A stretch of DNA of 38,575 bases, taken from the IMG/VR virus record IMGVR_UViG_3300020027_000021, positions 1 to 38,575 of that record; one strand, written 5' to 3'. How positions within the stretch are numbered: position 1 is the stretch's first letter; every line of letters starts with the position of its first letter. Under the pieces are notes generated by a model. That model made no database searches and was not told where the DNA came from. It was given only the letters and a program-made list of their open reading frames with translations. This DNA comes from a virus. Positions 10,276 to 22,881 of this stretch are shown here, piece by piece. The position numbers were made by a program, and so were the translations under genes.

Positions 10276-10447
10276 GTGATTCACCTCGTGCAAATTTAAT
10301 GCCTTGTATAAACGATTGGGCTGCTATGGCTGCTTCTTTTTCACTAGCGAACTCACCGACTAAGCCAGTGAGAAAATCGCTATTTGCTCTGATATCCGCA
10401 AACCATATGTCTTGGGTTTCCCATACAGTGAAGTGATAATTAATCAT
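10268..10447 (-). CDS. 59-aa protein of the recombination operon
   Basis: A small reading frame wedged between the exonuclease and Bet genes, overlapping the exonuclease stop (ATGA) and the Bet start. It begins MINYHFTVWETQDIWFADI and has an alternating hydrophobic pattern that suggests a small alpha/beta protein, followed by an Ala/Glu-rich helix. No family is recognised. The coupling on both sides supports it being a real gene with a role in, or with, the recombination module. Confidence 0.65.
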   Translation of the reverse strand: MINYHFTVWETQDIWFADIRANSDFLTGLVGEFASEKEAAIAAQSFIQGIKFARGESHE

Positions 10448-11286
10448 TGCGTCATTCCTTTCATTAAGAAGGTTCGTGTACCTCTTTTGTTAGCCTTCCA
10501 TGAAACGATTGGTCGTCCTGATTCGTCTGTGAGACATTCTGCGTCTTTCATAAATTGCATGATGTTAAATTTGTACTTTTCCTCAACCTCACTCAAAGCC
10601 TTTATCTTAAAGCGTGTGTCGGCTAAAGTTGTTAATTGTTCGGCAACATCTGGTTCAATTGTTACAGTCTTTTCGGGATCATGTTTTGGGTACATGAGTT
10701 TTAAATCAACTTGATTGATTGGTTTAGGAGGGGTTTTAGTTTGGACACAATGCCAGAACTCTTTGGCAGCATCGATAATCTTTGATTCTAGCTCGAAGTT
10801 ACGAGTGTATTTGAACTCACGGTAATCATTACCACCGATTAATACAGCAATGTAGGCAAAATCCGCATCGAGTACAGCGCAATAATGAGCTACTTGTACA
10901 AGATATTGCATTGGTATGACGTCTGAACCGTCTTCACCCCATTCATGTGCCATGAAACCAGCCGAACATTTGACTTCGAGCACTGCGTTCCATTCACGGA
11001 TATATCCGTCAACGTTTCCCCTGAGAAATTCGTGGAAAGGGTGAACGAGAGTATCAGGTAATTCAACGGCCACATTGTTGCGTTTAGAAAATTCATCACG
11101 GATAACACCTTCTAATTGATTGCCCCAATATTGAAATGGTGTTTCTTCCTGAGTTGATTCAGTTTCGCCAATCTTCTCAAGGTATAATTGATAGGGTGTT
11201 TTGTAGTTTGATAGACCTAGAATAATGGGCATATCACTACCGCCAATACCTAGTTTACGTTCTGCGCGTTGTTGTTCTGTAATCAT
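10444..11286 (-). CDS. YqaJ/lambda-type exonuclease
   Basis: 280 aa. The N-terminal LGIGGSDMPIILGLSNYKTPYQLY motif is typical of the YqaJ viral recombinase family, and the nuclease core follows: an Asp in GNVDGYI (~residue 93) and LEVKCS (~103-108), the ExK element that binds metal. Such enzymes resect double-strand ends 5-prime to 3-prime and hand the single strand to Bet. First gene of the leftward operon. Its ATG follows the GAGAGAG ribosome binding site that forms part of the conserved leader element at 11292-11325. Confidence 0.9.
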   Translation of the reverse strand: MITEQQRAERKLGIGGSDMPIILGLSNYKTPYQLYLEKIGETESTQEETPFQYWGNQLEGVIRDEFSKRNNVAVELPDTLVHPFHEFLRGNVDGYIREWNAVLEVKCSAGFMAHEWGEDGSDVIPMQYLVQVAHYCAVLDADFAYIAVLIGGNDYREFKYTRNFELESKIIDAAKEFWHCVQTKTPPKPINQVDLKLMYPKHDPEKTVTIEPDVAEQLTTLADTRFKIKALSEVEEKYKFNIMQFMKDAECLTDESGRPIVSWKANKRGTRTFLMKGMTQ

Positions 11287-11345
11287 AATAGCTCTCTCTG
11301 GTTAAATAATTTATCTATGGTTAAATAAACAATTCCCTCGTTCAT
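11283..11345 (-). CDS. possible 20-aa leader peptide
   Basis: A short frame with the best ribosome binding site of the region (AAGGAAGG, 5 nt before ATG 11345). It runs through the whole conserved leader element and its stop overlaps the exonuclease start (ATGA). The peptide contains FNQRE, also read from the third leader copy. It could couple translation to the exonuclease gene or make ribosome position affect the leader RNA. It may also be fortuitous. Confidence 0.4.
   Translation of the reverse strand: MNEGIVYLTIDKLFNQRELL
11292..11325 (-). promoter_or_regulatory. conserved leader element, copy A (before exonuclease gene)
   Basis: On the - strand: TTTAACCATAGATAA, then ATTA overlapping into TTTAACCAGAGAGAG, 5 nt before the ATG. 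The same two-part block, with the same spacing, lies before genes starting at 18829 and 19203. The purine run doubles as the ribosome binding site. Confidence 0.7.
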
Positions 11346-11391
11346 GTTACCTTCCTTAGTCGCCTTCGTGGCCCTATTCAGCATTACTGCC

Positions 11392-11420
11392 TTGACACAT
11401 AATGCCTAATTGGTTATAGT
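11392..11420 (+). promoter_or_regulatory. rightward early promoter
   Basis: TTGACA (11392-11397), a 17-nt spacer and TATAGT (11415-11420): a near-consensus sigma70 promoter. Transcription would start near 11427, about 28 nt before the cro-like gene. It occupies the same DNA as an opposing leftward promoter (11399-11427). Confidence 0.8.
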
Positions 11421-11427
11421 TTGTCAA
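11399..11427 (-). promoter_or_regulatory. leftward early promoter for the recombination operon
   Basis: On the - strand: TTGACA (11427-11422), a 17-nt spacer ending in ATTAGG, and CATTAT (11404-11399). It would give an mRNA with a ~105-nt leader before the exonuclease gene. The block ATTAGGCATTATG recurs with one change at the other leftward promoter (19249-19261). Confidence 0.75.
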
Positions 11428-11454
11428 TCGAATTATACAAAAATACGGGTTTAT

Positions 11455-11637
11455 ATGAAATTCTCCGAAGTAATGGCACATTATGATTATAAGATGATTA
11501 AGATTTCAAAAGCACTAAAAGTGGCTCGCGATACCGTTACATCTTGGAAAGAAAAAGACAAGATACCCTTCACGAAACAATGTGAGTTACAGGTTATTAC
11601 CAACAACAAACTCATAGCAGACAGGGAACATGAATAA
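11455..11637 (+). CDS. P22 Cro-like transcriptional regulator
   Basis: 60 aa from ATG 11455; the longer frame to 11410 would overlap the promoter and is unlikely. The pattern EVMAHYDY...KISKALKVARDTVTSWKEKDKIP, then an amphipathic helix ending in KLIADRE, follows P22 Cro closely (helix-turn-helix at residues ~14-34, WKE after the recognition helix, length 60-61). It is the first gene of the rightward operon and probably binds the overlapping promoters just upstream to set the balance between the two directions. No CI partner was found. Confidence 0.8.
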   Translation: MKFSEVMAHYDYKMIKISKALKVARDTVTSWKEKDKIPFTKQCELQVITNNKLIADREHE

Positions 11638-11883
11638 ATGGAATTGACGGAAAAATGGGTGGCTCGTTTTAAAGACCCGAACGGAAGCGATAATATGGGT
11701 ATAGCAAATCACCACATGGCCTTAAATCAGCTTGTGGCACATATTTTAAGTTACGGTGGTACAAACATCGTCATCACTGACGAAACGTGTAGGCCACGCA
11801 TTATAGAAGGGGAAATAAACCATGAACAACGCAGCGAAGTACACGCAAGAACAGATGGATATAGCAGTCTTGAAAAATACTAA
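11638..11883 (+). CDS. 81-aa hypothetical protein
   Basis: Starts immediately after the Cro-like stop codon, with AGGGA about 10 nt upstream. Mixed alpha/beta composition with no cysteine pair, membrane segment or recognisable domain. Its last 62 nt overlap the next gene in another frame, an unusually long overlap for this genome, so the true 3-prime portion or the next start may differ. Confidence 0.5.
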   Translation: MELTEKWVARFKDPNGSDNMGIANHHMALNQLVAHILSYGGTNIVITDETCRPRIIEGEINHEQRSEVHARTDGYSSLEKY

Positions 11884-12052
11884 TGAAGGAATTTTAAGAA
11901 GTATTTCAGACCTAAGAGACGATATGAAAACTGAATTGAGTGCTATTCGAGCTGAAATGAAAAGCCAAGGCCATATGAACCTTGGGTTAAGTTTGGGTAT
12001 TTACGGCATGATTGGAGCAGCAGCATTAGCTAAAATATTTGGGGTTATGTGA
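11822..12052 (+). CDS. 76-aa coiled-coil protein with C-terminal TM segment
   Basis: ATG 11822 has a strong AAGGGGA site. Residues ~25-48 form a charged helix (ISDLRDDMKTELSAIRAEM); residues ~52-74 are a hydrophobic, Gly/Ala-rich membrane segment. This architecture resembles XhlA-like and other small tail-anchored phage proteins. It is made early, so a lysis role is less likely than a membrane-anchored accessory role. Confidence 0.6.
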   Translation: MNNAAKYTQEQMDIAVLKNTNEGILRSISDLRDDMKTELSAIRAEMKSQGHMNLGLSLGIYGMIGAAALAKIFGVM

Positions 12053-12138
12053 TGACTGGTGACGGAACAGCAGCCATACTTTTTATTTGTGTAGCAGCAG
12101 TAATCATTACTTACATAATCTGCAATAGGGATAGATAA
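12052..12138 (+). CDS. 28-aa single-TM microprotein
   Basis: Its ATG shares a base with the previous stop (TGATG) and its stop is 1 nt before the next ATG. Nearly the whole chain (residues 6-24) is one hydrophobic helix with a basic end, CNRDR. Very short, supported by coupling on both sides. Function unknown. Confidence 0.45.
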   Translation: MTGDGTAAILFICVAAVIITYIICNRDR

Positions 12139-12139
12139 C

Positions 12140-12685
12140 ATGAGTTGTATTACAGAAATATTAAAATTAAAAGGTGATCAGGATGTTCTTGTGCCTGATG
12201 GGGAGTGGATTGCTGTTGAAGGTGGTGGCATTTACAAAGACCATGAGTACATTATTGTTTTAAACACTAATGGCCACCGTTGCGGATATGTCGCCATTCC
12301 ACCTGAGCACCCTTATAGCCAAACACCAGAAGAAACCCGCGAATTTATGGGCGGTCGTCCTTATAAATATTACGATTATGACAGCTTGGATATAGATGTT
12401 CATGGTGGTTTAACATTCATGTCACCAGAACATGGCTTAAAGGATTTATTAAAAACGCCATGTAACGATATGTGGATTGGGTTTGATTGTGGCCATCACG
12501 GTGATATGTGTGATGTAACAATGTTTAAAAAATACTTTGGTGAGAAAGAAGAAGAAAAGAAACAGTCCTTTTTTAAGGCTATGAATCATTCGGATATTAA
12601 CCTGGGGCAGACTGTAAAAGAATATGATTATGTAAAAGAACAATGTGAGTTTGTTATCGACCAACTGATACAGGTGGCAGCATGA
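12140..12685 (+). CDS. conserved phage protein of unknown function, 181 aa
   Basis: The central segment VHGGLTFMSPEHG and, further on, WIGFDCGHHGDMCDV resembles a widespread uncharacterised phage/mobile-element family with an HGGLT...GFDC-H-GD core, usually ending with a helix like VKEQCEFVIDQL as here. The conserved His, Asp and Cys suggest metal binding or catalysis, but no activity is established to my knowledge. Not membrane-bound. It lies in the early operon among tiny genes. Confidence 0.75.
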   Translation: MSCITEILKLKGDQDVLVPDGEWIAVEGGGIYKDHEYIIVLNTNGHRCGYVAIPPEHPYSQTPEETREFMGGRPYKYYDYDSLDIDVHGGLTFMSPEHGLKDLLKTPCNDMWIGFDCGHHGDMCDVTMFKKYFGEKEEEKKQSFFKAMNHSDINLGQTVKEYDYVKEQCEFVIDQLIQVAA

Positions 12686-12891
12686 GTTGGCATAGTTTTT
12701 TGGCACACACAATCCCAATTATCCTCAATAGTACTTCAATTGTGATTCTAGGGGTTTGGTTTCGTAGGTTAAGTAATCGAATCGATGCTATAGAAAATGC
12801 TGCGTACATTCGTCAATGGCTTGAATCAATTCAAAGCGGCGAATCGTTATCTGATTTAGCCTACATGAAAGAGAAGGGCTTTTTGAAATGA
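12682..12891 (+). CDS. 69-aa N-terminal TM protein
   Basis: ATGA overlap with the preceding gene. Residues ~5-27 are hydrophobic (one membrane helix); residues 28-69 form a charged helix with RIDAIENA. Probably an inner-membrane protein with a cytoplasmic tail. No family recognised. Confidence 0.65.
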   Translation: MSWHSFLAHTIPIILNSTSIVILGVWFRRLSNRIDAIENAAYIRQWLESIQSGESLSDLAYMKEKGFLK

Positions 12892-13070
12892 AATTAAAAC
12901 AAGAAGATGTTTATGATTCATTCCATTACATGACCGAAGTAGAAATACACGCAGCAATATGCGCAATTAAAAAAGGTGAAGAAAAAGACCAGTTAATGGG
13001 TCAAGCTTACATATTAGCTGTAGAGCGCTGTAGAACGCTTCTTAGGTCGATTATGAAGGATGTTGAATGA
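12888..13070 (+). CDS. 60-aa hypothetical protein
   Basis: Coupled by ATGA overlap at both ends. Helical and charged throughout, with two cysteines far apart and no membrane segment. It belongs to a chain of four small genes sharing 4-8 nt overlaps (12682-13598), which supports real translation. Function unknown. Confidence 0.6.
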   Translation: MKLKQEDVYDSFHYMTEVEIHAAICAIKKGEEKDQLMGQAYILAVERCRTLLRSIMKDVE

Positions 13071-13264
13071 TAGATAAAAAGACGAAATATAAAGCCGTAG
13101 GGTGTGCCAATAAGTCATTGCATTTTTTGCAACAACTCAAAAAACACACACAAATAGGGGAAGGATTTACCCAAGCACGCGCAGCATATGGACTCATGCT
13201 TATCGAAGCCTATTTAAACGGGCAATTTTTAACAGAAGTACAGGAGTTTACGGATTATGAGTGA
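13067..13264 (+). CDS. 65-aa hypothetical protein
   Basis: Coupled to its neighbours by short overlaps (4 nt upstream, 8 nt downstream). The N-terminus is basic (KKTKYKAVG); the rest is an amphipathic helical pair. No recognised motif. Confidence 0.6.
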   Translation: MIDKKTKYKAVGCANKSLHFLQQLKKHTQIGEGFTQARAAYGLMLIEAYLNGQFLTEVQEFTDYE

Positions 13265-13598
13265 TGCTATTGCAGAGTGGTATAGAGCTACAAAGAAGAT
13301 GATAAAGCAGGTAAAAGACGATTCAAAAGGCAATGTAGAACCCATACAACATATGATTAATGATTGGAATCAAGCGCTAGAAACAATGGAAGCAGCTTGT
13401 CCAGGTCTTAGAGAACAATACGAGCGAAGACAAGAAGTAGAGCAATCATTTAATGAAAAACAAATAGACCATATCTGCTATATTATTGGTGAATGGTACA
13501 TCGAATGGAAAGATAAAATGTGGGTTGATGGGAAGCCGAATCAACACCGATTAGGAATAGCCAAAGAGAAGCTAAAAACAATGATTTGCGGGGATTAA
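13257..13598 (+). CDS. 113-aa hypothetical protein
   Basis: Helical, rich in Trp, Glu and Lys, with no membrane segment. AGGAG lies about 14 nt before the ATG inside the upstream gene. The segment IDHICYIIGEWYIEWKDKMW is notable for aromatic residues and may form a packing core. The stop abuts the next ATG directly. Function unknown. Confidence 0.65.
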   Translation: MSDAIAEWYRATKKMIKQVKDDSKGNVEPIQHMINDWNQALETMEAACPGLREQYERRQEVEQSFNEKQIDHICYIIGEWYIEWKDKMWVDGKPNQHRLGIAKEKLKTMICGD

Positions 13599-13892
13599 AT
13601 GAGTAAATATTTATGTCTGTGTGGCAGGGATTTTAAGAGAAAAAAACATGCTGATAAACACGCAGATTTGTTTAAAGATTGTGATGAATTGACGCAACAT
13701 TATCATATTATTGTAAAAAAGTTATGGCGTGCGCGTTTGATTGATTTAGCCTTAGAATATCCATGGGGTAGATTCTTTCGTGTGCTTGGTGGTTATATGA
13801 TTTGGTTGACTTTAAGTCATCACTTTCAAATAAATTTAAATATGTGGGAAGCTACATTTATGGGCTTAGGATTGGGACTTTATATTGACTAA
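13599..13892 (+). CDS. 97-aa protein with zinc-finger-like N-terminus and TM segments
   Basis: Residues 4-29 hold CLCGRDFKRKKHADKHADLFKDC, a C-x-C...H-x3-H...C arrangement that could bind one zinc ion. Residues ~63-95 contain one or two hydrophobic segments (GGYMIWLTLSHHF and ATFMGLGLGLYI). A membrane-anchored metal-binding protein would be unusual; the function is unknown. Confidence 0.6.
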   Translation: MSKYLCLCGRDFKRKKHADKHADLFKDCDELTQHYHIIVKKLWRARLIDLALEYPWGRFFRVLGGYMIWLTLSHHFQINLNMWEATFMGLGLGLYID

Positions 13893-13902
13893 TGGACTTT
13901 AC

Positions 13903-14289
13903 ATGAATTGGCTACAGGATGAGCGCTATACATGGAGGCAAGAAATAATTCATGGTATCTGGTACGAGCCTTATGTGTTACAACAATACAGAGCACACAG
14001 AGATTCCAACCTCTGGCGTTCTACAAGGGAAGTAGAGAAGTTATGCGAATATATTTTATTCTTAGAAGGAGCTAAACCCATGTCTGAGTCAATCAAAACC
14101 ATTTGTGACAACTGCGAAAAAGATTTAAGCCAAAGCGATAAATACCCTGAGTTTGCCCTTAGACTCTCAGAAAGTATGATGGCAGTCGCACCTGATGCCG
14201 TTCAAGATCCCGAATCAGTTCCAGAATTAGACCAGATTAAAAACTTTTGTAATCTTCATTGCTTGAAACAATGGTCTAACAAAGAATAA
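13903..14289 (+). CDS. Cys-rich protein, 128 aa or 69 aa
   Basis: The frame is open from ATG 13903 but the best ribosome binding site (AGAAGGAG) precedes the in-frame ATG at 14080. The region after 14080 carries CDNCEKDL and CNLHC, a four-cysteine zinc-ribbon-like pair. Either the short form (14080-14289, 69 aa) is the main product, or both a long and a short form are made from one frame. The N-terminal part is Trp/Tyr-rich and of unknown function. Confidence 0.6.
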   Translation: MNWLQDERYTWRQEIIHGIWYEPYVLQQYRAHRDSNLWRSTREVEKLCEYILFLEGAKPMSESIKTICDNCEKDLSQSDKYPEFALRLSESMMAVAPDAVQDPESVPELDQIKNFCNLHCLKQWSNKE

Positions 14290-14298
14290 GGAACCCTC

Positions 14299-14640
14299 GT
14301 GGCTGAAAAATACAACACAGCACATTTTGTGGTGGGTGAAACTGCGCCTACCACAGAACCACAGAAATCGTTATCTGATATTGTTTTCCTAGTTAAATCA
14401 CGTTTAGCTGATGCGCTGGACGACCCTAATGCGGGGCTTGCTGGCACTCATCCCAGAGTGATTATCTCTATGGTAGTAACTAACATTCTCGTTAATTTAA
14501 TGTTCCATTCTGTAGCCGTCACTGATGTAAAAAGACGGTTATTTATGGTTAAAGAAACATTGGATGAAATAAATGAAATGACGTTTCAATTGTGGAACGC
14601 CTTGGAAGCAGGAAGAGCCGATACCAGCACGGCACATTAA
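14299..14640 (+). CDS. 113-aa hypothetical protein, GTG start
   Basis: Begins at GTG 14299 with AAGGA 8 nt upstream. The first ~25 residues are polar; residues ~60-80 contain a moderately hydrophobic helix (VIISMVVTNILVNLMF), followed by a charged helix. It looks soluble rather than integral. No family recognised. Confidence 0.6.
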   Translation: MAEKYNTAHFVVGETAPTTEPQKSLSDIVFLVKSRLADALDDPNAGLAGTHPRVIISMVVTNILVNLMFHSVAVTDVKRRLFMVKETLDEINEMTFQLWNALEAGRADTSTAH

Positions 14641-14653
14641 AAGAGAGGTATTT

Positions 14654-14872
14654 ATGACGCATCATATCGTTGAACCATTTGGTACGCTTACACTACCCGC
14701 ATATACTGGGAAAGAGTTAGTCAAGATAAAATTAAATACTGAAAGTTTGACGACTTTATTACGCTCAAATATGTCTTGTCACATGAACAAAACGTTGACC
14801 CAAGAACTAATGGAACAATTAACTGCGCAAATAATTGAATCTATTGATTATTTTATAAACAAGATTGAATAA
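14654..14872 (+). CDS. 72-aa hypothetical protein
   Basis: ATG with GAGAGG 5 nt upstream. Short beta N-terminus, then amphipathic helices (LRSNMSCHMNKTLTQELMEQL). It is the last gene before the long replication leader. Function unknown. Confidence 0.6.
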   Translation: MTHHIVEPFGTLTLPAYTGKELVKIKLNTESLTTLLRSNMSCHMNKTLTQELMEQLTAQIIESIDYFINKIE

Positions 14873-15133
14873 TAAATGTTATTGGTGATTTCAATTTGCG
14901 AAGATAAGGGGTATTATCAGTAGGAAGTTTTAGAGGCTTCCTGCCTCACTACTTTTTTTTATTAGTGCTTGAATCAAAATCCACCAAGATACCATTCAAG
15001 CTGCACATGTTCCGCGAAACACAAAAAGTTTTGGCTTCGGGCTTTTTGTTATGGACTACACATCCTTTCGCGCTTTTACCATAACAAGTTTATCGCAAGG
15101 GCGATTAACCTATACGACAAAGGCGATTATACT
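14873..15133 (+). promoter_or_regulatory. replication-gene leader with competing hairpins
   Basis: A 261-bp stretch with no supported gene. Four stems are visible. AGGAAG (14922-14927) pairs with CTTCCT (14937-14942); this excludes GAGGC (14933-14937) pairing with GCCTC (14943-14947), which is followed 5 nt later by eight T (14953-14960), an intrinsic-terminator layout. Downstream, ACAAAAAG (15021-15028)/CTTTTTGT (15042-15049) excludes TTGTTATGG (15046-15054)/CCATAACAA (15079-15087). This is how attenuators and riboswitches look. A frame is open through the second half from a TTG at 14969, but it lacks a ribosome binding site. Confidence 0.5.
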
Positions 15134-15982
15134 ATGACTCACTATGTGAATACAAACATTGCAATCGAATATGATGTAAATGTTGCACTATTCTGCGAGC
15201 ATCTCAAAAATTGGACATTTAACAACCTAGCAAATAAACGAAATGTGTTTGATGGATTTTGCTGGACGTACAATACTCTCGAAGCTTTTTTAATACAATT
15301 TCCTTTCTGGACGCGAAGACAACTCGAAACAGTCATCAACAGAGCAGTATCTACAGGGCTTGTGCTCAAAGACAACTACAATAAAAACCGCTATGACCGT
15401 ACATGCTGGTACGCATTATCGTATAAAGCATATGACTATTTCCCTGAACTGAAAAAACCTGAATTTGCAGAAAGCCTGTATCTATCGATTTCACCAAAAT
15501 GTGAAATCAATTTCTCGGAGTGGGGAAATCAATTTCTCGGTATTGTGACACCTATACCAATACTAATAACCAATACTAATAACAATAATACTATAGGCAC
15601 TTCTGACGAAGTGGCCGAAGAACCCGAAATTCAAGAAGTTAAAAAAAGAAAAAGAAATGTCAAACCAGCATTTGGAATTGAAGATTTACAGGCCGATAAT
15701 CCACATTTGATTGAGACTTCGATGCTCAATGACTGGTTGGAGGTGCGAGCAAGTAAGAAAAACAGAGTAACTCAAACCGCTTGGAATAAAATTAATCGAA
15801 CATTAACTCTTATTGAAAATGAGGCCAAAATACCCGCAAGAGAAGCCTTTGAAACAATGGTTACAGGGGCTTGGCAATCTTTAGAGCTTAAATATTTCTT
15901 AAATAATTCAGGACGTGCTGGCAATGATTCCCAAGGATCAGGGATAAAAAACTCATCTGGTCAAAATATAACTTGGGATTAA
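15134..15982 (+). CDS. replication initiator-type protein
   Basis: 282 aa from ATG 15134. Residues ~1-110 look like a winged helix-turn-helix (AIEYDVNVALFCEHLKNW, then a Phe/Trp-rich region and WTRRQLETVINRAVSTGLVL), typical of phage replication proteins that bind the origin. A low-complexity Asn/Thr linker (residues ~140-165) follows, then a basic KKRKR stretch and a C-terminal helical domain. It directly precedes the primase-helicase, so it probably opens the origin and recruits it. As in lambda O, the repeats of the likely origin lie inside the linker-coding region. Confidence 0.75.
   Translation: MTHYVNTNIAIEYDVNVALFCEHLKNWTFNNLANKRNVFDGFCWTYNTLEAFLIQFPFWTRRQLETVINRAVSTGLVLKDNYNKNRYDRTCWYALSYKAYDYFPELKKPEFAESLYLSISPKCEINFSEWGNQFLGIVTPIPILITNTNNNNTIGTSDEVAEEPEIQEVKKRKRNVKPAFGIEDLQADNPHLIETSMLNDWLEVRASKKNRVTQTAWNKINRTLTLIENEAKIPAREAFETMVTGAWQSLELKYFLNNSGRAGNDSQGSGIKNSSGQNITWD
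15487..15582 (+). other. candidate replication origin inside the initiator gene
   Basis: GATTTCAC (15487-15494) and GTGAAATC (15501-15508) form an 8-bp inverted repeat. A 16-bp block, GAAATCAATTTCTCGG, occurs at 15503-15518 and 15525-15540 (22-bp period). CCAATACTAATAA is then tandemly repeated at 15557-15569 and 15570-15582, leading into very AT-rich DNA. Iterons beside an AT-rich unwinding element within the initiator gene are the lambda-type origin layout. Confidence 0.6.
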
Positions 15983-15985
15983 AAC

Positions 15986-17818
15986 ATGATATTAGCTAAG
16001 GAATTATCGGAACGATTATCACAACGAGCCGAAGACTTCGCACGGTTTTTGTTTCCTAATGGGAAGAAATCAGGCAATGAATGGTGTATTGGTAGTCTTC
16101 AAGGTGAGAAAGGTACGTCATTAAAAATTCACACAAAAGGCGTGAAGGCTGGTGTTTGGTGTGACTTTGCGACAGGTGCAAGCGGTGATTTGATTGACCT
16201 TTGGGCGCATAAAGAAGGCGTGTCGTTACTTGAGGCAATGAAAGGCGTTAAGGCTTATTTAGGGCTTAAGGATGTGAAGTTTCAGCCGGACAGGAAAATA
16301 AAATATACTTTGCCAAAAGTACAGGCGGTTGAAAGTCCTAAGAAAAACTCAAAAGTATTGGATTACCTCACGAAAGAACGTGGCTTAACACTAGAAACAT
16401 TACAGGCGTATCAGATTGGCGATGAAGGCAATGAGATTGTGTTTCCTTTTGTGCGTGATGGAAAAATCGTTAACCTCAAGTATCTTAAGCTTGAAAGACC
16501 GAACGGAAAGAAATTAATTCGCACTGAATCAAATTGTGAACCGTGTTTGTTTGGCTGGCAGAATGTTCCTAAAAATGCGCGGGAGATTACAATTTGTGAA
16601 GGCGAAATTGATGCTATGAGTTTGTATCAATGTGGTATTGCTGCGTTATCGATTCCCTTTGGTGCTGGCAGCGGTAGTAAAAATGAATGGGTAGAAAATG
16701 ATTTTGATAGGCTAGCTGTATTTGATGTGATTAATGTGTGTATGGATGATGACGAGGCCGGACACCTAGCCCGAGACAGCATTGTACAAAGACTTGGCAA
16801 TGTTAGGTGTCGTATAGTTACGCTACCCATGAAAGACGCTAATGATTGCTTATTGAATGGCTATGATAGTGAAGACCTGAAACAGTGTATCAAAGAGGCT
16901 AAAAGCATTGATCCTCATGAATTAAGACGTGCTAGCGAATATCTGCAAGAGGTACTCGACAGATTATACCCTCCTGATGGAAAGCAACCAGGCTATGAAT
17001 CAGCATGGGATAAATCAAATAACAAAATTCGCTTTAGACCCAGTGAATTATCCGTATGGACGGGAACTAACGGCCACGGTAAAACTCAGTTTCTAGGTCA
17101 TTTAATGCTGGGATTAATGAAACAAGGTGCTAGGGTATGTATTGCGAGTCTGGAATTAAAACCAAGTTTGTTATTGACTCGATTAGCTAAACAAGCAACA
17201 GGGATGGCATTACCAAGCCCCGATTATGTCAAAGAAGTAAATCAATGGTATTACGATAAGCTATGGATATTTGACCTAACAGGCACAGCGAAGGCACAGC
17301 GATTGATTGAGGTATTTATCTATGCTCATCAACGGTATGGGATTGATACATTTGTGATAGATTCATTTGCTAAGCTTGATATGGCTGATGATGACTACAA
17401 AGGGCAAAAGATATTGATGAACGCCTTATGTGATTTCAAGAATGATTATAATTGCCATGTCCACTTAGTGGTACATCCTAGAAAAGGTGCGGATGAGTCT
17501 TCAATGCCTGGGAAACTGGACACTAAAGGCAGTGGATGTATTACAGACTTAGCGGATAATTGCTTCACGGTATGGCGTAACAAAGCAAAGGAAAGCATTG
17601 TTAATAAAGTGAATAAAAATGAACCAATTACTGATAAAGAGCAAGAAAAGCTATTGATGCCTGATTGCTTATGGTGCTGTGATAAACAACGTGATGGCGA
17701 TTGGGAAGGTAATTTATCCTTTTGGTATCATGGGGCATCTTTTCAGTATTTGAGTTATGAGAATCAAAAACCACAAAGGATTGTGCCATTTTCATGCCTA
17801 GAAGACTCACAGACGTAG
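15986..17818 (+). CDS. bifunctional primase-helicase (TOPRIM + DnaB-like)
   Basis: 610 aa, resembling T7 gp4/Twinkle-type enzymes. Residues ~30-70 (WCIGSLQGEKG...GVWCDFATGASGDLIDL) are the N-terminal primase module but hold only two Cys, so a four-Cys zinc finger is missing. TOPRIM: CEGEIDA at 204-210 and MDDDEAG at 253-259. RecA-like helicase: Walker A GTNGHGKT at 360-367, Walker B DTFVIDS at 454-460, and HVHLVVHPRKG near 490. It would make primers and unwind the fork with the upstream initiator. It overlaps the next gene by 25 nt. Confidence 0.88.
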   Translation: MILAKELSERLSQRAEDFARFLFPNGKKSGNEWCIGSLQGEKGTSLKIHTKGVKAGVWCDFATGASGDLIDLWAHKEGVSLLEAMKGVKAYLGLKDVKFQPDRKIKYTLPKVQAVESPKKNSKVLDYLTKERGLTLETLQAYQIGDEGNEIVFPFVRDGKIVNLKYLKLERPNGKKLIRTESNCEPCLFGWQNVPKNAREITICEGEIDAMSLYQCGIAALSIPFGAGSGSKNEWVENDFDRLAVFDVINVCMDDDEAGHLARDSIVQRLGNVRCRIVTLPMKDANDCLLNGYDSEDLKQCIKEAKSIDPHELRRASEYLQEVLDRLYPPDGKQPGYESAWDKSNNKIRFRPSELSVWTGTNGHGKTQFLGHLMLGLMKQGARVCIASLELKPSLLLTRLAKQATGMALPSPDYVKEVNQWYYDKLWIFDLTGTAKAQRLIEVFIYAHQRYGIDTFVIDSFAKLDMADDDYKGQKILMNALCDFKNDYNCHVHLVVHPRKGADESSMPGKLDTKGSGCITDLADNCFTVWRNKAKESIVNKVNKNEPITDKEQEKLLMPDCLWCCDKQRDGDWEGNLSFWYHGASFQYLSYENQKPQRIVPFSCLEDSQT

Positions 17819-18048
17819 AATGTAAAGATATAATCCGAAGACTTGGCAAACGTTTAAACGTAGAACCGAAGCTTATCACTACTCGATTAATGAGTGAGGA
17901 TGATAAACAAGACATGCGTGAAGACAATTTACCTGTTAAGTCTTTGGAGTGTCATATCAAAGTATGGATGGCTGCTGAAATGCCTGACTATGCTCATGGT
18001 AAAACTGTACCCCTTGCGCTAGAAGATACGCAAAGGGTATTAATTTAA
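17794..18048 (+). CDS. 84-aa hypothetical protein
   Basis: Last gene of the rightward operon; its ATG lies 25 nt inside the primase-helicase gene. Basic N-terminus (MPRRLTDVECKDIIRRLGKRL), helical, no cysteine pairs, no membrane segment. The end converges on the 18045 gene with 4 nt overlap. Function unknown. Confidence 0.6.
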   Translation: MPRRLTDVECKDIIRRLGKRLNVEPKLITTRLMSEDDKQDMREDNLPVKSLECHIKVWMAAEMPDYAHGKTVPLALEDTQRVLI

Positions 18049-18233
18049 GCAGCTAAATATTGTTGAAGTTGCTTTAAGAGTAGATTTTCATCTTTATCAC
18101 AAAACGTTTTCCTGCGCTTACCGAGTAAAATATTAACGGTAAGTTTGTTTTCAATAGAACTAATGTTAACAGCACATTTTCTTTTTTCTATGATTGCCCA
18201 GAGTGTAGGCAACATTCTATTAATAAATTCCAT
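18045..18233 (-). CDS. 62-aa hypothetical protein
   Basis: ATG 18233 is chosen because GAGAAGG lies 6 nt upstream; an in-frame ATG at 18254 is inside the preceding gene. A hydrophobic helix near residues 8-16 is followed by a basic LGKRRKTFCDKDE region. Last gene of the leftward accessory operon. No family recognised. Confidence 0.55.
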   Translation of the reverse strand: MEFINRMLPTLWAIIEKRKCAVNISSIENKLTVNILLGKRRKTFCDKDENLLLKQLQQYLAA

Positions 18234-18234
18234 T

Positions 18235-18444
18235 TTAACCTTCTCCATTTTCAAGTAACGAAATATGTCCTATAGCTGCAAATCCTGCTTGAGCTTCACT
18301 ATCAAACCATTCTTCGGACTCTCTCACAATCTTATCCGTTTCTTTTTTATAAATTGTGTAGGCATAACCTAAACATTTATCACGATGACAATCTGGCCAA
18401 TACTCATAAACTTCATAATCATAATAACTGTGTGTTTTTCTCAT
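18235..18444 (-). CDS. 69-aa hypothetical protein, Tyr-rich
   Basis: ATG overlaps the previous stop by one base (TAATG). The N-terminal half is rich in Tyr, His and Trp (HSYYDYEVYEYWPDCHRDKC); the second half ends in a helix. His/Cys content suggests possible metal binding. Function unknown. Confidence 0.6.
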   Translation of the reverse strand: MRKTHSYYDYEVYEYWPDCHRDKCLGYAYTIYKKETDKIVRESEEWFDSEAQAGFAAIGHISLLENGEG

Positions 18445-18590
18445 TATGCTGCCTCCTCATCACGCCAAGCTTCATAGGCATCATCACAAGATTGATAGTA
18501 GCGATCATCACAATCGCTACACAGCCCACAATTACCATGACATTCGTTTTCATCACCGTGCCAACCGTCCATCATTCCTTTGTAACTCAT
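18444..18590 (-). CDS. 48-aa Cys/Asp-rich protein, possible zinc binder
   Basis: ATG 18590 has GGAGGT upstream and overlaps the previous stop (ATGA). The core CHGNCGLCSDCDD holds four closely spaced cysteines, with a fifth near residue 35, and the protein is very acidic. This spacing can hold a metal ion. It is conserved in context (four coupled genes), but no function is known. Confidence 0.6.
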   Translation of the reverse strand: MSYKGMMDGWHGDENECHGNCGLCSDCDDRYYQSCDDAYEAWRDEEAA

Positions 18591-18829
18591 GCTGCTACCT
18601 CCATGTTTAATTCACACAACATTTTAAATTTGGGAATCATTCCCACTAATTCATCAAGACTTGTGCTTTTTTTATGAATGAGACCATCTACCCATACACT
18701 GTACTCGGTTGATTCTTCTTCGGAACTAGTATGACACCAAACGCTCATATCTATGTTGGCAGTTTTACCGATATGTACGCGAACCCAATGAGCAAATTCG
18801 CGCAATAAATTGAATTGTTCGTTAATCAT
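18587..18829 (-). CDS. 80-aa hypothetical protein with its own conserved leader
   Basis: Begins at ATG 18829, preceded by AGAGGAAA within leader copy B. A small alpha/beta protein with the core FAHWVRVHIGKTANIDMSVW, no membrane segment. It is downstream of the 18928 gene in the same direction, with an inverted repeat between them (18882-18923), so it may be separately controlled. Confidence 0.65.
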   Translation of the reverse strand: MINEQFNLLREFAHWVRVHIGKTANIDMSVWCHTSSEEESTEYSVWVDGLIHKKSTSLDELVGMIPKFKMLCELNMEVAA

Positions 18830-18837
18830 GGTATTTC

Positions 18838-18873
18838 CTCTATCTATGGTTAAAAAATCTTTCTATGGTTAAA
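18838..18873 (-). promoter_or_regulatory. conserved leader element, copy B
   Basis: On the - strand: TTTAACCATAGAAAG (18873-18859) then TTTAACCATAGATAGAG (18854-18838), 8 nt before ATG 18829. Same arrangement as copies A and C; here the purine run reads TAGAGGAAA. Confidence 0.7.
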
Positions 18874-18881
18874 ATTTGTAT

Positions 18882-18923
18882 TAATAAAGACGATGACCCT
18901 AAAAATGGCTACCGTCTTTATTA
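18882..18923 (-). terminator. 11-bp inverted repeat between two leftward genes
   Basis: TAATAAAGACG (18882-18892) pairs with CGTCTTTATTA (18913-18923) around 20 nt. On the - strand it follows the stop at 18928 by 4 nt and is followed by AATACAAATTTT. It may be a weak terminator or an RNA-processing hairpin that separates two genes with similar leaders. Confidence 0.45.
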
Positions 18924-18927
18924 TTGG

Positions 18928-19203
18928 CTAGTAGGTTCCCCATGCTGAAACGTATTTAGGCTTTCTATCGTATTTGGAATAGCCACAGCTTCCCCATTTA
19001 TTGAATCTCTTTTGGAATTTCTCGCTCTTGAAGTCATTAGCAACAGGCTCAACGCTAGTGTCAGTTACATAATGTTTTGATACTTTTCTAAATTCTATTG
19101 TTTTAGCAGATACAACACGTACCACTTGGAAAAACTCTACCAATGTTGCGTCATATCCGTAGATATCATAGAAAAAATCGCCTACTTTAATTTCATCACT
19201 CAT
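18928..19203 (-). CDS. 91-aa hypothetical protein, first gene of leftward accessory operon
   Basis: ATG 19203 is chosen over 19278 because the upstream part lies inside the promoter and leader. The start MSDEIKVGDFFYDIYGYDATLVEFFQVVRV has the SH3-like beta pattern of many small phage accessory proteins, where GDFFY-DIYGY-x-V(E)FFQV recurs; a Lys/Tyr-rich C-terminus follows. Function unknown, probably soluble. Confidence 0.7.
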   Translation of the reverse strand: MSDEIKVGDFFYDIYGYDATLVEFFQVVRVVSAKTIEFRKVSKHYVTDTSVEPVANDFKSEKFQKRFNKWGSCGYSKYDRKPKYVSAWGTY

Positions 19204-19209
19204 TTTATT

Positions 19210-19239
19210 CTCTCTCTGGTTAAAGTTGTTATCTATGCT
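19210..19239 (-). promoter_or_regulatory. conserved leader element, copy C
   Basis: On the - strand: AAGCATAGATAA (ending 19229), CAAC, TTTAACCAGAGAGAG (19224-19210), then 6 nt to ATG 19203. The second half is identical to copy A over 15 nt. Here the element forms almost the whole predicted 5-prime UTR. Confidence 0.7.
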
Positions 19240-19249
19240 TGAAGTAGTC

Positions 19250-19278
19250 ATTATGCCTAATCGACTGCACATAGTCAA
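19250..19278 (-). promoter_or_regulatory. leftward promoter of the accessory operon
   Basis: On the - strand: TTGACT (19278-19273), a 17-nt spacer ending in GATTAGG, CATAAT (19255-19250). The start point would be near 19243, giving a ~40-nt leader. It shares ATTAGGCATwATG with the leftward promoter at 11399-11427. Confidence 0.75.
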
Positions 19279-20647: not shown

Positions 20648-20733
20648 GGGGCAAACGCATAATAGGAAGTGCTCTCGGCTGTAACCCGATGGACGGACAG
20701 CCCGTGTTGGTTCGACTCCAGCTTGCCCCACCA
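20648..20733 (+). tRNA. tRNA-Tyr (GTA)
   Basis: Acceptor GGGGCAA (20648-20654) with TTGCCCC (20723-20729), anticodon loop CTGTAAC giving GTA, a long variable arm (ACGG/CCGT, class II as expected for bacterial Tyr), T-arm GTTGG-TTCGACT-CCAGC, and encoded ACCA at the end. The D-arm is short and irregular (GCA/TGC), and the anticodon stem has one mismatch. Confidence 0.85.
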
Positions 20734-22505: not shown

Positions 22506-22581
22506 TCTCCGTTAGCTCAGTTGGTAGAGCATTTGACTGTTAATCAAGTTGTCGGTGGTTCGAGTCCATCACGGAGAGCCA
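22506..22581 (+). tRNA. tRNA-Asn (GTT)
   Basis: Acceptor TCTCCGT/ACGGAGA (7 bp), D-arm GCTC/GAGC, anticodon stem TTTGA/TCAAG with loop CTGTTAA giving GTT, T-arm GGTGG-TTCGAGT-CCATC, discriminator G and encoded CCA. All arms canonical. Confidence 0.95.
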
Positions 22582-22807: not shown

Positions 22808-22881
22808 TGGGCTATGGTGAAGTGGTATCACACTAGACTTTGACTCTGGTATCTCACGTTCAAATCGTGATAGCCCTGCCA
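22808..22881 (+). tRNA. tRNA-Gln (TTG)
   Basis: Acceptor TGGGCTA with TAGCCCT (position 1-72 is a U-U mismatch; bacterial tRNA-Gln usually has a weak first pair), D-arm GTG/CAC, anticodon stem CTAGA/TCTGG with loop CTTTGAC giving TTG, T-arm TCACG-TTCAAAT-CGTGA, discriminator G and encoded CCA. Confidence 0.9.

Follow-up and report, generated by a model that had tools for sequence, protein, structure and literature searches.

Start-associated sequences (SAS), whose function is not known, were described in Cluster K mycobacteriophages (PMC3203893) and again in Cluster EF Microbacterium phages (PMC7302621). A SAS consists of one 13-mer, GGGATAGGAGCCC, that includes AGGAG and is found in 11–19 copies per genome at non-structural genes; the ESAS, found upstream, is a 17-bp imperfect inverted repeat whose consensus varies by subcluster (PMC3203893, PMC7302621). 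The translational operator of gene 32 in T4/RB69 is an unstructured leader at the SSB gene: its repeated UUAAA units cover the ribosome binding site, a folded element (a 5′ pseudoknot) precedes them, and its reader is the single-strand binding protein (PMC535899). The repeats analysed here lie in a 38.6-kb virus record (38,575 nucleotides, hereafter the window) that encodes a portal, terminase, primase-helicase, recE-recT-ssb, a P22 Cro-like gene and three tRNA genes (tRNA-Tyr, tRNA-Asn and tRNA-Gln at 20648–20733, 22506–22581 and 22808–22881, + strand, among packaging genes). Start-codon repeats were previously described in actinobacterial phages, and the present group, which has no close cultured relative, is an independent case. 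As with SAS, we find a conserved non-palindromic sequence near start codons in one orientation, its second copy 7–14 nt from the ATG. The unit, TTTAACCAKAGA, has no AGGAG core (AGGAG or AGAGG, where present, comes after it), there are 3 sites in the window and 2–3 in relatives instead of about 11–19, and the repeat is direct where ESAS is a 17-bp imperfect inverted repeat.

In the window the leader unit, TTTAACC-A(K)-AGA, is present twice with a period of 19 nt before each of three leftward (− strand) starts, 11286, 18829 and 19203, the repeat sitting 8–13 nt 5′ of these start codons (Table 1). The exact bipartite pattern CATAGAWARNNNNTTTAACCAKAGA matches three times, always on the − strand (11295–11319, 18843–18867 and 19213–19237), and never in 100 dinucleotide-preserving shuffles, which confirms, more strongly than first stated, the original observation of a leader shared by three leftward genes. 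A search for the period-19 double motif, allowing up to 4 mismatches in 24, returned the same three places only and nothing in 40 Markov shuffles, and all exact repeat copies within the window are on the − strand. The leader had been described as two halves at constant spacing; the spacing holds, but the halves are not distinct elements, both being copies of one 12-mer. Both copies at 11286, and likewise at 18829, match TTTAACCAKAGA exactly, and the first copy of the 19203 leader is TTCAAGCATAGA. Equating the purine run with the ribosome binding site was right only in part, since at 18829 an AGAGG sits 3′ of the motif. The genes do fall into two operons, regrouped such that 11286 heads one and the other opens with 19203 followed by 18829; no protein family links them, as had been claimed. 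The repeat is direct, not inverted, and lacks the palindromic half-sites of a two-fold symmetric DNA operator. Most of the leader is predicted to be unpaired at two of the three sites.

Table 1. Features of the two leftward operons and their leaders (window coordinates).
Feature	Position	Strand	Basis
recE leader, start-proximal copy TTTAACCAGAGA	11295..11306	−	sequence
recE leader, distal copy TTTAACCATAGA, 19 nt from proximal copy	11314..11325	−	sequence
Second-operon leader, start-proximal copy TTTAACCAGAGA	19213..19224	−	sequence
Second-operon leader, distal copy TTCAAGCATAGA, starts 6 nt past −10 box	19232..19243	−	sequence
Internal leader, distal copy TTTAACCATAGA	18862..18873	−	sequence
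Internal leader, start-proximal copy TTTAACCATAGA	18843..18854	−	sequence
recE-like YqaJ exonuclease, first large gene of recE-recT-ssb	10444..11286	−	protein family
20-codon upstream ORF, holds both repeat copies; TGA overlaps recE ATG	11283..11345	−	sequence and relatives
Shine-Dalgarno AAGGAAGG of recE upstream ORF	11350..11357	−	sequence
recE promoter TTGACA-17-CATTAT, within TTGACA...TGTCAA palindrome	11399..11427	−	sequence
Second-operon promoter TTGACT-17-CATAAT	19250..19278	−	sequence
First gene of second operon, 91 aa; non-homologous between relatives	18928..19203	−	comparison
Second gene, 80 aa, alpha-beta-beta-beta-alpha model	18587..18829	−	predicted structure and relatives
Intercistronic hairpin without U tract, 8 nt 5′ of internal leader	18882..18923	−	predicted fold

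The gene at 11286 encodes a YqaJ/RecE exonuclease, with RecT and SSB genes after it. Its upstream ORF (translation MNEGIVYLTIDKLFNQRELL followed by a stop, 11345–11283), which directly precedes it behind a strong Shine-Dalgarno sequence and is absent from the earlier ORF reading, is probably translated. An upstream ORF with a Shine-Dalgarno sequence is found in 28 of the 31 relatives examined, 18 of which have the ATGA overlap with the recE start. Among nine repeat-sharing genomes, synonymous change among same-residue codons amounts to 9.6% in the upstream ORF against 41% in recE (first 50 codons, same nine genomes), the lowest 11-codon window of recE reaching 21.8%, and amino-acid changes are commoner in the upstream ORF than in recE (26% versus 16%). 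Low synonymous change combined with high residue change indicates selection on the nucleotides and not on the peptide, bearing out the view that conservation lies outside the protein. Nor can coding explain the recE repeat, because its copies fall in different frames (19 nt is not a whole number of codons). The upstream ORF (mostly 16–25 codons), probably coupled in translation to recE, is kept in nearly all relatives, even those that have no repeat. Divergent promoters at 11392–11427, for recE (−) and for the gene of a P22 Cro-like regulator (+) at 11455, have a single TTGACA...TGTCAA palindrome in common; the arrangement is also conserved in relatives, with a short hairpin directly past the recE start site.

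The second operon encodes small proteins, for which Pfam gave no match. A zinc-ribbon-like gene, together with the small terminase of the opposite strand, anchors the operon. No relative of its first gene was found among the viral contigs searched; this gene is swapped between genomes (L147, L150, L170 and L180 in addition to the window) with promoter and leader retained. Orthologues of the 18829 gene mostly carry the leader whether they come first or second in the operon: where the orthologue is first there is a single leader, and where another gene is inserted a leader stands before each. The listing of sigma-70-like sites has none close to the internal leader at 18829, and the hairpin before this leader is a possible processing point. 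A strong hairpin near the internal leader also occurs in four relatives (L156, L158, L180 and L184).

Searching the motif in related phages, the check proposed originally, shows it kept before equivalent starts. A related recE is encoded by 37 viral contigs; stretches of 23 of these were fetched and oriented, and further contigs came from pattern scans. We count 28 repeat sites including the three of the window, located before recE, before the 18829 orthologue and behind the second-operon promoter. At all 28 the second copy ends 7–14 nt before the ATG, and the period is 19 in 21 of them (range 18–22); promoter and repeat are separated by about 6 nt in the second operon and by about 55–75 nt at recE. 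In L116 both copies of one site have changed alike (TTTAAATATAGA twice). With a loose pattern, the scan of viral contigs yielded 104 stretches, mostly unrelated to the window and near chance level. Cultured phages provide recE relatives only below 60% identity and terminase relatives at no more than about 35%, and the leader has no match there over most of its length. Scanning genome contigs produced one phage-like contig only, in a metagenome bin, which gives no host; the contig L193 (CAIRZD010000252.1) belongs to this phage group and was assigned to the bin of an uncultured Bacteroidetes genome, which may be a binning artefact.

More distant relatives have different leaders (TTACGCATATTTACTAGGAG is the type of one lineage), yet their recE and second-operon leaders are alike in G010, G017, G021, G024 and G025, and weakly in G018. 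Within-genome leader pairs, for which second-operon leaders were picked by hand, score 29.1 against 19.3 for re-paired leaders (sd 1.4; 24 genomes; permutation p about 5e-5). One representative per leader type (n = 14) gives p about 4e-5, and the same set without the 12 nt nearest the start (the Shine-Dalgarno part) p about 5e-4; these permutations assume exchangeable genomes, and common ancestry makes the p-values optimistic. When the recE leader is compared with all start-codon leaders of its genome (31–127 per genome), the best match is a second-operon leader in 12 of 17 genomes. For G017 the ORF caller picked a longer ORF, and its leader pair, at 30, scores above the best listed value of 18; the exceptions are G005, G006, G008 and G020, with G008 a mosaic whose recE leader is of one type and second-operon leader of another. 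Leaders of recE and the second operon are without match in G005, G006, G011, G019, G027 and G030. No such within-genome excess is expected if an old duplication had left two copies that then evolved independently. The joint change of both leaders in several relatives suggests that one common factor recognises both, perhaps on the mRNA; this is natural evidence, and it makes the question of a trans reader testable. Promoter spacers likewise match within genomes (p about 3e-4), so some of the within-genome signal could be DNA-level, and an added DNA-level layer of shared control is likely. Small repeats can also be homogenised by recombination, which counts against a trans-acting factor.

We favour a model, which we hold at about even chances, where an mRNA leader recognised in trans controls translation initiation at both leftward operons. 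The leftward mRNAs would carry a 5′ leader with two UUUAACCAKAGA units 19 nt apart, the second of them coinciding with or closely followed by the ribosome binding site. A phage-made or phage-used factor would bind this tandem repeat in the RNA, setting how frequently translation begins at recE and at the genes that lead the second operon. The shared leader would place the recombination operon and the small-protein operon under joint control, exerted at recE via the short, translationally coupled upstream ORF and at 18829 on an internal start behind the hairpin. We infer that a trans-acting factor exists; it may repress rather than activate, repression by covering the ribosome binding site being the simplest direction of control.

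That the leader acts as RNA rather than DNA also appears probable: RNA is favoured because the distance from repeat to ATG is kept, the distance to the promoter is not, and the copy spacing drifts between 18 and 22. A double-stranded DNA operator, at which a phage regulator would bind the direct repeat downstream of the leftward promoters and control transcription initiation or early elongation, is unlikely in our estimate. It would account for a first copy only 6 nt past the −10 box at the second operon and for the within-genome matching of promoter spacers, and a candidate regulator, the P22 Cro-like protein, is encoded divergently from recE. The predicted operator just after the promoter nevertheless loses ground at 18829, which has no recognisable promoter nearby, and at recE, where the repeat lies ~70 nt downstream; a spacing drift of 18–22 bp would moreover alter helical phase, the fixed distance is the one to the ATG, and a direct repeat is not two-fold symmetric. 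Quite unlikely, too, is that the leader itself aids 30S binding as a cis-only translation enhancer with no trans factor. Location at the ribosome binding site, a largely unpaired prediction at two of the three sites and a need of early genes for strong starts would all fit such an enhancer, but the element is absent from other genes of the same phage, and the unrelated leaders of relatives match within each genome, a pattern that a contact common to all ribosomes does not call for.

Cassette exchange at short repeats, possibly by the phage RecE/RecT, could have made the leaders alike as recombination boundaries. Consistent with this, the swapped first gene of the second operon, where present, has leader copies on both sides, and G008 is a mosaic; we nonetheless rate it very unlikely, as it leaves unexplained the fixed ATG position, retention in the recE upstream ORF and the joint change of both copies in one site (L116). 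The phage sRNA that had been proposed, or a host small RNA, pairing with both copies is scarcely credible: sRNAs typically target the ribosome binding site, where the leader lies, but complementary runs elsewhere in the window do not exceed 11 A/T-rich nt, leaving no antisense RNA candidate there, and Rfam covariance models at the gathering threshold detect only tRNAs in the window.

For the trans-read mRNA leader, the originally predicted phage RNA-binding repressor is upheld indirectly as far as a trans partner goes, given leaders that vary between genomes and match within them; an RNA-binding protein may be that partner, and searches by family and by fold gave none. Candidate readers are SSB, RecT and two conserved small second-operon proteins (18045–18829, −). 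Both small proteins give confident alpha-beta-beta-beta-alpha models (pLDDT about 91), and their families are unrelated by profile comparison. Structure searches with the two models gave no significant match (best E 0.014 and 0.048, TM mostly <0.5), and we set the fold aside as evidence for a reader; both models also had many weak matches to dsRNA-binding domains and SRP9/14, which hint at RNA-binding folds without reaching significance. A tentative extension, which we doubt more than we believe, is a lineage-specific translational code: leaders would differ by lineage, each recognised by a phage RNA-binding protein that evolves along with it (possibly a small alpha-beta-beta-beta-alpha protein of the second operon, or SSB) and that links production of the recombination enzymes with production of small early proteins.

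Antitermination sites of the boxA/nut type contain UUUAAC and are located in early leaders, with YGCTCTTTAACA as the boxA consensus. We rejected this identity: the GCTC part is absent, the bases 5′ of TTTAAC are unconserved across the 28 sites (GCUCU is not conserved here), and the leader is tied to start codons. The leader falls outside the full definition of SAS/ESAS and probably also outside that of the T4 gp32 operator, in line with the earlier statement that no described element has this sequence. The Cluster K SAS is the closest described kind. The leader resembles SAS/ESAS as a short, non-palindromic, phage-specific sequence of one orientation, in ribosome-binding position a few nt before starts of unrelated non-structural genes, and differs from SAS as a tandem direct repeat at 2–3 sites, one of them overlapping a coupled upstream ORF. 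Like the gp32 operator it has repeats covering the ribosome binding site; one of the three sites has a hairpin on its 5′ side, and an ssb gene lies in the recE operon. The repeat unit here is longer and evenly spaced, and the leader precedes recE, not ssb. The gp32 operator may serve as a working analogue of the leader.
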